From the NCBI RefSeq assembly GCF_004136315.1, contig NZ_CP029562.1, positions 62,001-126,000 on the forward strand: DNA of 64,000 nucleotides. Direction: 5' to 3'. Every line of letters begins with the position of its first letter. Positions within the stretch are counted from its first letter, which is position 1. Position numbers and translations under genes: made by a program. The notes under the pieces were generated by a model, which was not told the origin of the DNA, searched no databases, and worked only from the letters and a program-made list of their open reading frames with translations. Origin of the DNA: Mesorhizobium sp. Pch-S. Its GTDB lineage: Bacteria; Pseudomonadota; Alphaproteobacteria; Rhizobiales; Rhizobiaceae. This document shows, piece by piece, positions 28,107 through 33,425 of this stretch.

Positions 28107-28424
28107 TCACCCTTCGACGAAGCGTAGACCGACCACGCCGACAATGATGAGCGCGATGCAGCCAAGCCTCAGTGGCGTCGCCGGATCGCCAAACAGCACG
28201 ATGCCGAGCGTCGCGATACCAACAGCGCCGATACCCGTCCAAACTGCATAAGCGGTGCCGGCCGGCAGGTGTCGCATGGCGAATGTCAGCACAAAGACGC
28301 TGAGCAGCGCGAAAAAAATACCGCCGACGCTCGGCCAGAACCGTGTCCAGCCCTCGGCATATTTCAGCGAAACGCCCATCGCGATCTCGATGACACTCGC
28401 GACAAGAAGCAGCAACCAAGCCAT
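28107..28424 (-). CDS. Small multidrug resistance family transporter, SugE/Gdx type
   Basis: 105 residues, four transmembrane helices. The essential Glu13 lies in SVIEIAMG and the family signature GTAYAVWTGIGAVG is complete. SugE/Gdx members export guanidinium or quaternary ammonium compounds. It is divergent from an HxlR regulator with a 92 bp shared region that contains a palindrome, a common arrangement for locally controlled efflux genes. Single SMR genes like this work as dual-topology dimers. Confidence 0.9.
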   Translation of the reverse strand: MAWLLLLVASVIEIAMGVSLKYAEGWTRFWPSVGGIFFALLSVFVLTFAMRHLPAGTAYAVWTGIGAVGIATLGIVLFGDPATPLRLGCIALIIVGVVGLRFVEG

Positions 28425-28489
28425 CCCGGCCCTCCTTTGGTGTTCTGATGCAGGCTCATGTGTGATAACAGGAACCAAAGGGCAATTAC

Positions 28490-28503
28490 GCACCTTTTGG
28501 TGC
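28490..28503. promoter_or_regulatory. Palindrome upstream of the HxlR gene, probable operator
   Basis: GCACC and GGTGC flank TTTT, 13 bases before the regulator start and 65 bases from the sugE start. The position between a divergent regulator and efflux gene suggests binding of the HxlR protein. Confidence 0.55.
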
Positions 28504-28516
28504 CTACGGGTTTTCG

Positions 28517-28888
28517 ATGGCCGCGCCAAACGTCTACGATTCTGGCTGTTCCGCACGGGATGCACTGGAACTTATCGCGTCCAAATGGGCGATGCTGATC
28601 CTGCCGGCTCTATCTGGAGGGCCAATGCGCAACAGCGCGCTGCTCCGGAAAATTGGCGGCATTTCGCAGAAGATGCTCACCCAGACGCTGAAAGACCTGG
28701 AGCGTAACGGGCTGGTGATCCGCCAGGACATGCAGACAGTGCCGCCGCATGTCGAATACAGGCTGAGCGCTCTCGGCAGCTCACTCAGCGAAGCCCTGAT
28801 CACGCTCGACCGCTGGGCGGAACGTCATTCCGGCGATCTCGATGCCGCCCGCGAGCGCTTCGACGCTGACCGAAAGTCTCTTGATTAG
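28517..28888 (+). CDS. HxlR family transcriptional regulator
   Basis: 123-residue winged-helix regulator. Cys11 in SGCSARDALELI is the residue that HxlR/DUF24 proteins often use to sense electrophiles or oxidants, and the recognition helix region GISQKMLTQTLKDLERNGLV is standard. It probably controls the divergent SugE gene and itself through the palindrome at 28490. Its end overlaps the convergent ATP-grasp gene by 4 bases. Confidence 0.87.
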   Translation: MAAPNVYDSGCSARDALELIASKWAMLILPALSGGPMRNSALLRKIGGISQKMLTQTLKDLERNGLVIRQDMQTVPPHVEYRLSALGSSLSEALITLDRWAERHSGDLDAARERFDADRKSLD

Positions 28889-30348
28889 CGCCCCTGGCGC
28901 TCCAGACGATCCAGGAACCACTGTGTCAGCCGCACCCAGACTTCGTCTTTCTCGCCGGTGTCCTCACAGCCGTGGTCGAGGTTGGGATTGTCGTTGACCT
29001 CGATGACGAAGACGCCATCCCTGGTTTCCTTCAAGTCAACTCCGTACAAGCCATCACCAATGCAGCGGGCTGCCTTGACTGCTGTCTGGACCGCATGTGC
29101 CGGAGCATCCTTCAGGGTGAAGGTCTTGAAGCCGCCTTCATCTGGTTTGCCGGCGCGATCGTGATTGACGATCTGCCAGTGCTGTTTGGCCATCAGATAC
29201 TGCACGGCAAAGAGCGGCTCGCCACCCAGCACGCCGATGCGCCAGTCGTAGTCGGTGGGAATGAACTTCTGCGCAACGAGCAGGTCGGAATCCTCCAACC
29301 ACTCGGTCGCCAGTTTCTTCAACTCGCCAAAATCCTTGCACTTCTTGACGCCGCGCGAGAAAGCGCTGTCGGGGATCTTGAGGACCAGCGGGAATCCGAG
29401 CGTGTCTGCCGCCACTTCCAGGTCTGAGGGACCGGCGATCATCACGGTGGGCGGAACCGGTACGTCGTTGAAGGCCATCAACTCGTTCAGATAGACCTTG
29501 TTGGTGCAGCGGATCATCGACAGGGGATCGTCGATCACCGGCATGCCTTCCTGCTGGGCCCGGCGGGCAAACCGATAAGTGTGGTTGGAAATCGAGGTCG
29601 TCTCTCGAATGAACAAGGCGTCGTAGTTGGCAACCCTGGCCAGGTCTTTTTTGGTGATCGGCTCGACCTCCACGCCCATCTTCTCGGCTATGCGCGCCCA
29701 ATAACGCAGCGAGGAGATCGCCGAAGGCGGCAATTGCTCATGCGGATCGACCAGGGTCGCGAATGTGTAACGCGCCGGGATGCGTGCTTTGCTGTCTCGC
29801 CATTCGCGGCCGGTGTAGACATCGAGGCACTCGAGAAAACGCTTCTCTTCCACCTCGGTCATCCGCGCCAACGGATAGAAGCCTATCTTGCGGATCGTCG
29901 CCCACTCGCCGGCGTCGGCTATCGCCACTTCCAGTGCTGGTGCACGGAACCAGTCGAACAGGAGTTTGGCGAAACGATCCCAGGCCTTGCCGGGACCGAT
30001 ACCGAAGAAGATGTGAACCTTGGCTGGGAAAGTGCCGCCGAGATCCTTGCGGCACTTGTTAAGCGCCAGCTCCAGTTCCGGCAGCGCATGCTCGTAGAGC
30101 TTGCGCTCGGAGAGGTCGATCATCGTCTCGACGGTCGGAATGACCTTGTGGCCGCGCGAACTCGCCAGCAGCGAGGCGTAGTAGCCGCGGCTCTGATAGT
30201 CATAACGGTTGGAAAGGTTGATCACCTTCGGGCGTTGGCCGCGAAACAGGCCCGGATGGGCCAGATAGTCTCGATTGGTAATGACTTTGTGCGGCGTTGC
30301 CACCTGGTCGAGATCGTTCTGCCTGCCTGTGAGGATGACCCAGGTCAT
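28885..30348 (-). CDS. RimK-like ATP-grasp ligase with N-terminal RLAN-type domain
   Basis: 487 residues. The C-terminal half is an ATP-grasp amide-bond ligase of the RimK type: PLVLKIPDSAFSRGVK is the ATP lysine and loop, WRIGVLGGEPLFAVQY follows, and the metal-binding end is FVIEVNDNPNLDHG. The N-terminal 250 residues (NLSNRYDYQSRGYYASLLA at about 45-63) fit the RLAN domain found only with this ligase group. Its start overlaps the stop of the GNAT-peptidase gene by 4 bases, so the two proteins are made together. Such ligases add amino acids or peptides to carboxylates; the substrate here is unknown. Confidence 0.85.
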   Translation of the reverse strand: MTWVILTGRQNDLDQVATPHKVITNRDYLAHPGLFRGQRPKVINLSNRYDYQSRGYYASLLASSRGHKVIPTVETMIDLSERKLYEHALPELELALNKCRKDLGGTFPAKVHIFFGIGPGKAWDRFAKLLFDWFRAPALEVAIADAGEWATIRKIGFYPLARMTEVEEKRFLECLDVYTGREWRDSKARIPARYTFATLVDPHEQLPPSAISSLRYWARIAEKMGVEVEPITKKDLARVANYDALFIRETTSISNHTYRFARRAQQEGMPVIDDPLSMIRCTNKVYLNELMAFNDVPVPPTVMIAGPSDLEVAADTLGFPLVLKIPDSAFSRGVKKCKDFGELKKLATEWLEDSDLLVAQKFIPTDYDWRIGVLGGEPLFAVQYLMAKQHWQIVNHDRAGKPDEGGFKTFTLKDAPAHAVQTAVKAARCIGDGLYGVDLKETRDGVFVIEVNDNPNLDHGCEDTGEKDEVWVRLTQWFLDRLERQGR

Positions 30349-31451
30349 TGTTTCGCGCGCGCTCCAAGAATGATGGCGGCACGCAGTCCGTCGCGGCCGA
30401 ACTGCGCCATGGAAATGAAGATGTCGTACGGCACCGGAATGTTGGCGGCATCCACCTGCGTTTCTTCCCGCTCGTCCTCGACCCATGGGTCGTGAATGAG
30501 GATATGGTCGCCGTCGTCGCCGATCGCCAGAACCCAGTGCGGGACTTTCTTGCCGAACATCAGGAAGCCGCTGATCAGGACAACAACCAGCTTGCCGGCG
30601 GCGATCGCGGCGCGGATGTCTTCAATGGAGAAGGCATTGTAGCGCACCGGGATGCCATACTCTCTGGCGCGACGCTGGAAATCGATCTGTGCCAGTTCCA
30701 TGACACGGCGTTTCTCGACACTGCGGACCGATTGCAGGAACAGCGGCCCGTCGAACGAAACGAAAATCTCGGCCGAAAGTCCGTATTCATAGGCAGCCAC
30801 CGCCAATCCGAACGGCTCGCAGCCGCCGGGCCCTGACATCATGAAAACTGTGGTTGCCTCCCGCCACAGCCGCACTTCCATGACCGGGTCTGGCCTGAAC
30901 CCGGTGTCGAAATGCGCCATGGTCATCATCAGGCAGCAGGGACCGCAGGTAAAATCGCAGGTCTGCTCATAGAACGGGACCGAGGTAGCGACTGGCACGT
31001 GGCCGCGCAGCATTTTCTCGTAACGCAGCGCGGGCGCACCATCCTCGTAATAGTCGCTCTCGCGGCCAATCTTGCGATAGCCGGATTGTTCATAGATGCG
31101 GATCGCGCGCGCGTTGTCCTCGCGCACTTCCAGGCGCAACATCATGCGATCGTGTTCGAAAGCGGTGTCCTCCGCCGCCTCCAGCAACAGGCGGCCAACG
31201 CCGCGCCCACCGAAATCAGGGCCTGTGGCCAGCGAATAGAGCCGTGCGACGCGGCTGCCCTTGCGAAAAAGGATGATCGCATAACCCGCGATGTTGCCGG
31301 CGCTCTCAGCGATCAGGGTCTCGGCCGTTTCCCGCTCGATGAGCTGGCGGAAAGAACGGCGCGAAATACGATCGGTTGCAAAGACGGCGTTCTCGATGGC
31401 GGCGAGAGCATCGACGTCGGAAGCGCGGGCCGTGCGGACTTCGGCAGGCAT
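30345..31451 (-). CDS. GNAT acetyltransferase fused to C39-like cysteine peptidase
   Basis: 368 residues in two domains. Residues 1-150 are a RimI-like GNAT fold with the acyl-CoA loop GGRGVGRLL and the ending AIRIYEQSGYRKIG. Residues 155-368 are a papain-like domain of the DUF3335/C39 kind, with oxyanion Gln and catalytic Cys in YEQTCDFTCGPCC, His in KVPHWVLAIG and Asp in ILIHDPW, so the triad looks complete. It is the first gene of a pair with the ATP-grasp ligase. A peptide acyl-transfer and cleavage role is inferred from the domains. Confidence 0.85.
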   Translation of the reverse strand: MPAEVRTARASDVDALAAIENAVFATDRISRRSFRQLIERETAETLIAESAGNIAGYAIILFRKGSRVARLYSLATGPDFGGRGVGRLLLEAAEDTAFEHDRMMLRLEVREDNARAIRIYEQSGYRKIGRESDYYEDGAPALRYEKMLRGHVPVATSVPFYEQTCDFTCGPCCLMMTMAHFDTGFRPDPVMEVRLWREATTVFMMSGPGGCEPFGLAVAAYEYGLSAEIFVSFDGPLFLQSVRSVEKRRVMELAQIDFQRRAREYGIPVRYNAFSIEDIRAAIAAGKLVVVLISGFLMFGKKVPHWVLAIGDDGDHILIHDPWVEDEREETQVDAANIPVPYDIFISMAQFGRDGLRAAIILGARAKQ

Positions 31452-32118: not shown

Positions 32119-32910
32119 TCAGACCTTGCTTTCGGCGCCTTCGATCAACTGGCGATAGGCATTGCGGGCAACGCTGGCGAGCCGTTCCTGCGGCAGGACG
32201 CCGACAACGGCACAACCATAGCCTTTGTCGAGCCAGTAGATCGCCGCCGGGCCATTCTTCTCGGCATAGGTGCCCTTGGCATAGCTGCCTGCTTCCGAAG
32301 TCACGAAAAGCGAGATGCGATTGCCCTCGGCATCCTCATAGAGCAGCATTGCTGCCTTGCCGGTGCCAGAAGGCAGCAGCCGGCCACCGACCAGCTGGAA
32401 TCCGTCGGCCGTGAGATCCGGGGTCACCAGTCGCAAGCCGATCCGCGCCGACAGCCAATTGCGCATATGCTCCCCGTCCGAGGCGGGTACCTCGACGGCA
32501 TGACGCTTCTCGGCAGCATAGACGATGTAGGCAGCGACAGCCTCCTCGGCGAACCTGTCGGCCGAAACGTCTTCCGAGCCGATACCGCGTGAACCGACGA
32601 CGTAACCTCCTGTGCCACCCATTGCCAGCAGGACCGCTGCCGCAGCGGCTTGCCACCAGCGGGAACGCAGCAGCGGCCGGCGGCCGCTATCACCGGCAAC
32701 CAGCTTGGTGAAGCGCGCCGGAACCGGTTCATCAAGAGTGGCCGACAAAGCGCTGCGCAAAGTTTCGCGATCGGCACTGAACCGATTGCTCCTGGCATTC
32801 ATCTCCGGATTGCTCTCGAGCCATGTCTCGAAGGCAGCACGTTCTTCATCGGGCAATTCACCGTCGAGTGCCAGATGGATGTCGCGTTCTGTGAAATCGC
32901 GCGTGGTCAT
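32119..32910 (-). CDS. Anti-sigma factor (transmembrane)
   Basis: 263 residues. The N-terminal 70 residues form an anti-sigma domain of the zinc-less type (ERDIHLALDGELPDEE), followed by a single transmembrane helix at about 86-106 (AAAAAVLLAMGGTGGYVVG) and a periplasmic domain. The gene starts inside the stop of the ECF sigma gene (ATGA), the standard arrangement for a sigma/anti-sigma pair. The periplasmic part would sense an envelope or redox signal and hold the sigma factor at the membrane until then. Confidence 0.85.
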   Translation of the reverse strand: MTTRDFTERDIHLALDGELPDEERAAFETWLESNPEMNARSNRFSADRETLRSALSATLDEPVPARFTKLVAGDSGRRPLLRSRWWQAAAAAVLLAMGGTGGYVVGSRGIGSEDVSADRFAEEAVAAYIVYAAEKRHAVEVPASDGEHMRNWLSARIGLRLVTPDLTADGFQLVGGRLLPSGTGKAAMLLYEDAEGNRISLFVTSEAGSYAKGTYAEKNGPAAIYWLDKGYGCAVVGVLPQERLASVARNAYRQLIEGAESKV

Positions 32911-33425
32911 TTTTCGACCACCTTCAGCGAACGGCGCCGCGCGCGATCGTCGAGCAGTGCACGCAGATCCTCCCGGCCGCGCGAAATCCGCGACATCAGC
33001 GTCCCTGCGGGGATGCCGAGAATGTTGGCTGCTTCAGCGTAGGAGAAACCTTCGATGGCAACGGTTACGATCGCCGCGCGGCGCTCTGGCGCGATCGCCT
33101 GCAAGGCATCGAGGATTTCCCTGGAGGCGATGCTCTCGACCTGGATCGATGGCACTGTCAGCGCCTCATCACCGTCCAGCGGCAGCATCGCCATTTCGCC
33201 GCGGCGGCTCGCCTTGCGCATCTGGTCGATGAAAAGGTGGTGCATGATCGTGAACAGCCATTTTCTCGGGCTTTCGCCGGTTTGCCAGTTGTCCAGCCTG
33301 GCCAAGGCGCGCTCGAGACAATCCTGGACAAGGTCGTCCGCGGAATCGCGATTGCGCAGGAGCGCGCGCGCATAGCGGCGCAAGCGCGGAATCTCGCCAA
33401 GGATCGCAGCCTTCCTGTCGTCCAT
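32907..33425 (-). CDS. ECF RNA polymerase sigma factor
   Basis: 172 residues with sigma region 2 (DSADDLVQDCLERAL and WLFTIMHHLFIDQMRK) and region 4 (VAIEGFSYAEAANILGIPAGTLMSR). This is an extracytoplasmic function sigma factor that directs transcription of a stress or envelope regulon, normally including itself. A candidate ECF promoter lies at 33529-33555. Co-transcribed with the membrane anti-sigma factor. Confidence 0.92.
   Translation of the reverse strand: MDDRKAAILGEIPRLRRYARALLRNRDSADDLVQDCLERALARLDNWQTGESPRKWLFTIMHHLFIDQMRKASRRGEMAMLPLDGDEALTVPSIQVESIASREILDALQAIAPERRAAIVTVAIEGFSYAEAANILGIPAGTLMSRISRGREDLRALLDDRARRRSLKVVEK

Follow-up and report, generated by a model that had tools for sequence, protein, structure and literature searches.

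A stretch of 64,000 nucleotides from the genome of Mesorhizobium sp. Pch-S (RefSeq assembly GCF_004136315.1, contig NZ_CP029562.1, positions 62,001 to 126,000), hereafter the window, carries two overlapping genes on its minus strand. The first encodes a GNAT acetyltransferase domain fused to a papain-like, C39-type peptidase domain (DUF3335), and the second a RimK-like ATP-grasp ligase with an N-terminal RLAN domain. The unit is real and conserved, and it is better seen as GNAT plus ligase, with the peptidase optional and with an alternative form, in which a GCS2 carboxylate-amine ligase is found with an N-formylglutamate-amidohydrolase-like protein (FGase). Its features, in window coordinates, are as follows:

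30345-31451, minus strand: GNAT-DUF3335 (C39 papain-like) fusion protein, 368 amino acids (aa) (open reading frame [ORF] listing, Pfam, AlphaFold2 model)
31002-31451, minus strand: GNAT domain, residues 1-150 of the GNAT-C39 protein, with E108 and Y120 at the positions of RimI Glu103 and Tyr115
30366-30980, minus strand: DUF3335/Peptidase C39-like domain, residues 158-362, with C169, H305 and D321 (Pfam, 257.8 bits, and conservation)
30345-30348, minus strand: ATGA, the ligase start codon overlapping the GNAT-C39 stop codon (sequence)
28885-30348, minus strand: RLAN plus RimK/LysX-like ATP-grasp ligase, 487 aa (ORF, Pfam, homologue lengths, structure model)
29833-30273, minus strand: RLAN N-terminal domain (PF14401), ligase residues 26-172 (Pfam profile)
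28897-29769, minus strand: pre-ATP-grasp and ATP-grasp module, ligase residues about 194-484

The fusion and its four-base overlap with the ligase gene had been recognized earlier from the letters and their translations (the sequence-only reading), and the ATGA and the Pfam matches uphold both. The GNAT-C39 protein scores above the Pfam cut-offs for DUF3335 (PF11814) and Acetyltransf_1 (61.6 bits), and with its Cys-His-Asp set in place it belongs to the DUF3335 C39-like family. The ligase, which has both domains and the ATP-grasp residues, belongs with the RLAN-domain RimK-like ATP-grasp proteins (RLAN, 127.6 bits against a cut-off of 25; RimK domain PF08443, 38.1 against 21) and also exceeds the R2K_3 cut-off (31.1 vs. 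26.3 bits). Its length of 487 aa assumes a start at the ATG within the overlap. A longer open frame extends to 30486, but close homologues are nearly all 483-489 aa long, with a few of 502-508 (120 listed). The genome has one RLAN match and one DUF3335 match. The nearest named loci, among the best 80 of 582, are from Mesorhizobium (ligase identity up to 87%), and two genomes of the window's genus are closer still, one with a ligase that is 98% identical (locus L080).

Linkage of the two genes was surveyed with the RLAN and DUF3335 profiles in 398 Pseudomonadota genomes. Of these, 72 hold RLAN and 58 hold DUF3335; 57 genomes have both, 15 have RLAN alone, and one has DUF3335 alone. With 57 genomes in common, the co-occurrence is not due to chance (Fisher p about 1e-53, a statistic that ignores shared ancestry). 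All nine sampled genomes of the window's genus hold RLAN. At the 70 of 75 places that were read, we found 48 GNAT-C39 genes, 18 GNAT genes without C39, three fused GNAT genes and one locus with neither. A second survey covered 369 genomes of one class (by inference, the Gammaproteobacteria) and found RLAN in 81; its 75 newly read loci comprise 49 with GNAT-C39, six with GNAT, 14 with GCS2 and six with neither. Among the 80 named loci, a set biased toward close relatives, a GNAT adjoins the ligase in every case, 50 with C39 and 30 without it. Altogether, a GNAT of this clade lies within 3 kb of the ligase, or is fused to it, at 204 of 227 loci, which are not independent because the samples overlap and share genomes. 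The arrangement varies (same strand and upstream, divergent, downstream or fused). At three loci of one alphaproteobacterial genus (L078, L084, L091), GNAT, RLAN and ATP-grasp domains are read in one frame of 656-667 aa, with a separate GNAT-C39 gene beside the fusion. Such natural fusion marks the GNAT and the ligase as the core of the unit.

The GNAT domain is the steady partner of the ligase and the peptidase is an optional accessory. C39 is lacking at 48 of 149 labeled loci, where tblastn found no C39 remnant, and 15 of the 72 genomes with RLAN in the first survey lack DUF3335 altogether. Presence of C39 changes 16 times on a quick tree of 150 rows (at least 13 of these changes are forced by starred branches) and 17 times on a larger tree. 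The peptidase, the eye-catching part of the pair, is thus the part most often missing. The proposal that one protein both acylates and cleaves is therefore not general. At two loci (L272:7829-8467 and L273:8180-8767), GNAT and ligase flank a C39 gene of opposite orientation that keeps its Cys-His-Asp set.

Where the domains are present, their catalytic residues are conserved. In 59 aligned GNAT-C39 proteins, the Cys and His of the papain-type set (C169, H305) are invariant and D321 is kept in 54, with Glu in the remaining five, in keeping with the intact set first seen in the window. In the same proteins GNAT Glu108 is kept throughout and Tyr120 in 51, with Phe instead in seven and Val in one; in standalone GNAT partners both residues are kept in 13 of 13. 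These two positions align with RimI Glu103 and Tyr115, to which catalytic roles have been assigned (PMC3347575). Ligase residues K284, K324, R370, E450, N452 and N454 are invariant in 70 of 70 aligned ligases, as are 19 of the 20 tabulated conserved positions (D403 varies). The coupling predicted from the sequence alone thus extends across Pseudomonadota, with the genes mostly together and the catalytic residues retained. In two genomes of the window's genus, three unlinked paralogues no longer have the GNAT Glu and Tyr, and a fourth protein lacks a GNAT, whereas the ligase-family partners keep the GNAT Glu in all 59 fused and 13 standalone proteins.

Some ligases have a different partner. A GCS2 carboxylate-amine ligase takes the place of GNAT at 15 loci (14 of the 75 from the second survey and the Legionella adelaidensis record in which it was first seen), and an FGase gene lies beside GCS2 in 14 of them. 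No GCS2 or FGase match was found at any of the 204 GNAT loci. The GCS2-type ligases fall into a single clade (SH-aLRT 100), implying one switch on a quick ligase tree. They keep the same invariant residues as the GNAT type: 48 columns reach 99% conservation or more in both clades (16 vs. 202 rows), and no alignment column separates the two at 85%/85%. DUF3335 above the cut-off is absent from the 15 genomes of the GCS2-type clade, with one weak match (in genome G401). One member of this clade without GCS2 has a standalone Peptidase_C39_2 gene overlapping the ligase (L257:6893-7636).

The sequence-only reading saw no obvious precursor peptide near the pair and suggested looking for a conserved third partner. 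No such general partner appeared when ORFs of at least 70 aa within 7.5 kb were clustered for 70 first-survey loci (for second-survey loci the check covered GNAT, C39, GCS2, FGase and DUF4332). The largest cluster covers 16 loci (GGDEF/EAL); OmpR-type regulators, kinases, a sulfotransferase, LysR and AMP-binding proteins occur at scattered distances; genes for DUF2817 and DUF155 are lineage-bound (10 loci each, mostly one family); and one small cluster, of six loci in three families, is without a Pfam match. Retropepsin (PF05618, RimABK/Rlo-type) is absent among the annotated neighbor clusters, although no search was aimed at it. As to precursors, 4166 short ORFs (20-69 aa) lying no more than 1.5 kb from the pair at 150 loci were clustered, and the first 15 clusters grouped only close relatives, apart from one cluster of three loci; none was widespread. 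Most of them resemble, by eye, out-of-frame shadows of adjacent genes. This does not contradict the lack of an obvious precursor noted in the window.

DUF3335 genes also occur away from RLAN. In the window's family, 73 of 247 genomes have DUF3335, four of which were examined because of a lower score or a second copy. Of the eight unlinked DUF3335 genes, three adjoin oligopeptide ABC transporter genes (L101, L270, L271), which suggests that C39 acts on small peptides. In two of these stretches (L101:6716-14397 and L270:985-8758) the paralogues have no recognizable GNAT and an AstE/AspA-type deacylase lies alongside; in the third (L271:3164-10583) the gene directly follows the transporter genes and precedes an ArdC-like antirestriction gene, with no AstE/AspA-type deacylase. 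Among the other five (from L098, L099, L100, L101 and L102), two have annotated neighbors: the L100 gene adjoins an amidohydrolase, and the second L101 copy adjoins another solute-binding protein.

A few observations concern genomic setting. The pair keeps the same neighbors in most Mesorhizobium loci checked and is core-gene-like; genes for an extracytoplasmic function (ECF) sigma factor and its anti-sigma factor (window 32119-33425) are near it in most of them. On the other side, in the 28107-28888 stretch, are an HxlR regulator gene on the plus strand, whose 3' end overlaps the ligase end by four bases, and a SugE-like SMR transporter gene; both adjoin the pair only in the two closest relatives (25 other loci checked). 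Mobile cargo was considered and rejected, as 20 phage records match over only 41%-45% of the query. Plasmid records cover at least 80% of it in 11 of 32 cases, seven of them Azospirillum. The stretch of Pseudomonas aeruginosa plasmid pZYPA1927 that bears an RLAN ligase (L192:4902-6491) is chromosome-like (glutamate transporter, pagP, SDR, RLAN ligase). By gene order beside pagP (PA1343), its RLAN gene may be PA1345, a low-weight lead; for PA1345, a predicted CpxR motif without a DNA affinity purification sequencing (DAP-seq) peak is reported (PMC12802237). Two Bartonella loci (L142 and L143, one on a 2.48-Mb contig) retain the GNAT-C39 and ligase pair. Outside Pseudomonadota, RLAN was found in none of 14 control genomes and DUF3335 in one (Methanosarcina acetivorans); two loci filed as Acidobacteria metagenome-assembled genomes (L168, L179) nest among the Hyphomonas ligases in the tree and are perhaps misbinned contigs.

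Predicted structures bear on the chemistry. The AlphaFold2 model of the GNAT-C39 protein has a mean predicted local distance difference test (pLDDT) score of 91.4 and a predicted template modeling (pTM) score of 0.82; the ligase model has a mean pLDDT of 92.0 and a pTM of 0.64, so its domain arrangement is less certain. In structure searches the GNAT fold best matches RimI/Ard1/Nat and other N-terminal acetyltransferases, and the ATP-grasp module best matches LysX, ArgX and RimK. All listed ligase matches fell on the ATP-grasp module and GNAT filled the lists for the fusion, so that these searches bear on the ATP-grasp module and the GNAT domain. A C39 sequence profile gave weak matches only (PCAT C39 protease, E 0.0018; BtrH-like proteins, E 0.088), and acyl transfer by this domain is as plausible as hydrolysis.

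We give about even chances to the proposal that the two genes encode a module of two enzymes for making a small N-capped peptide. The RimI-like GNAT would acetylate an amino acid or short peptide at its amino group, and the RLAN/ATP-grasp ligase would activate a carboxylate with ATP and couple it with the amine of a further amino acid (the fold indicates the kind of reaction, and the substrates are our supposition). The C39 domain, where present, would cleave or trim the product. In the GCS2-type clade GCS2 would add the cap, presumably as a gamma-glutamyl group, and the FGase would trim in place of C39. Judging from fold and precedent, GNAT and GCS2 could do equivalent jobs, each placing an acyl group onto an amine, with the ligase making another amide bond. 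The target had earlier been supposed to be a general protein or to be encoded elsewhere. We lean instead toward a small peptide, because GNAT is exchanged for GCS2 plus an amidohydrolase-like protein and DUF3335 paralogues lie by oligopeptide transporter genes.

Several points weigh against this proposal. In fold, both enzymes are closest to proteins that act on protein ends, and gene neighborhoods cannot name a substrate. Three tested GCS2 proteins score under the curated cut-offs for YbdK and GshA, and gamma-glutamyl-type activity is here assumed from the family. The nearest working precedent, N-acetylglutaminylglutamine synthetase (Ngg; TIGR03103), resembles the pair in domain logic only, as neither protein passes its cut-off (GNAT-C39 protein, 22.9 vs. 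569 bits; ligase not among the matches); nor does any protein in the window's genome. Finally, eight loci have neither a GNAT nor a GCS2 partner in the stretch read. Partnerless loci L200, L230 and L245 end at contig ends; at L267 a GNAT of another kind lies 240 bases upstream; L257 has its C39-like gene; the GNAT-C39 gene of L037 is on another contig (L098); and L192 and L238 show no partner, with no GNAT within 5 kb of L192.

The main rival, which we consider rather unlikely, is protein-end modification. The GNAT would acetylate a protein N-terminus and the ligase would add amino acids to its carboxylate, as RimI and RimK do on ribosomal proteins, and C39 or the amidohydrolase-like protein would remove the tag. 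The fold matches and the RimI catalytic positions kept in the GNAT argue for it, as does the reported trimming by the RimB peptidase of the glutamate tail that RimK adds to RpsF (PMC12239564). However, the GNAT-C39 protein is below the curated RimI S18-alanine acetyltransferase cut-off (TIGR01575; 80.0 vs. 86.4 bits; five standalone partners score 64.3-85.0 and the L078 fusion 73.0) and the ligase below those for RimK (NF007764, 27.7 vs. 331; TIGR00768, 85.4 vs. 143.4 bits), no widely conserved target gene lies near the pair at the 70 clustered loci, and the GCS2/FGase exchange would seem to suit small-molecule chemistry better. Detoxification or salvage of a foreign or cell-derived small peptide by acetylation and cleavage, with the ligase rebuilding a useful peptide, is improbable: the oligopeptide importer genes by three of the eight unlinked DUF3335 genes and the resistance-type acetyltransferases among weak, below-cut-off matches would fit, but no transporter is a conserved neighbor of the RLAN pair among the annotated clusters, and the constancy of the pair's Mesorhizobium neighbors is that of a core gene. 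Least probable is a ribosomally synthesized and post-translationally modified peptide (RiPP) pathway, in which the ligase and GNAT would modify a precursor and C39 cleave it, for although such pathways are known to use ATP-grasp, GNAT and C39 enzymes, the short-ORF clusters close to the pair are nearly confined to close relatives and C39 is missing at many loci.

Extending the small N-capped peptide proposal, we tentatively suggest, with less confidence than for the module itself, a widespread and so far unrecognized class of such peptides in Pseudomonadota, made by one conserved ligase with interchangeable caps (acetyl or gamma-glutamyl) and matching hydrolases (C39 or FGase-like). If the partner exchange does reflect one pathway with two caps, there is a concrete product class to seek, and the common annotation "RimK family protein" becomes solvable. 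The literature searched contained no experimental study of the GNAT/RLAN-ligase unit and no paper combining "N-formylglutamate amidohydrolase" and "RimK". A 2009 analysis by Iyer and coworkers reportedly linked ATP-grasp, GNAT and papain-like peptidase, and part of the present unit was probably predicted there.

In the glutathione scheme, GCS acts first and an ATP-grasp enzyme (GshB) second, and the GCS2-type loci hold the same enzyme kinds. However, their product is unlikely to be glutathione, or a replacement route to it, because a separate GshB above the cut-off is present in 12 of the 15 GCS2-clade genomes (the search covered GshB, not GshA), as it is in the window's genome. The GNAT shares fold and catalytic Glu/Tyr positions with RimI and other N-terminal acetyltransferases, but scores just under the RimI cut-off and is fused to C39 or paired with a ligase. 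The ligase differs from RimK, LysX and ArgX in its extra RLAN domain, its RimK and LysX scores below the curated cut-offs, and its coupling to GNAT or GCS2. DUF3335 has been described as papain-like and as frequently fused to GNAT (PMC10318531, citing Iyer et al. 2009). For R2K ATP-grasp families, GNAT linkage has led to the proposal that an ATP-grasp-made peptide is capped (PMC4431377); the window's ligase, with its linked GNAT and R2K_3 match, is similar, but those are other ATP-grasp families, and RLAN and DUF3335 are absent from the portion of that account available to us. In Ngg, reported to both N-acetylate one glutamine and join a second, GNAT and ATP-grasp domains act together (PMC8070244). 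The two domains share one chain in the TIGR03103 model, as they do in the L078, L084 and L091 fusions, whereas the window's pair is far below that cut-off and has RLAN and C39 domains of its own.

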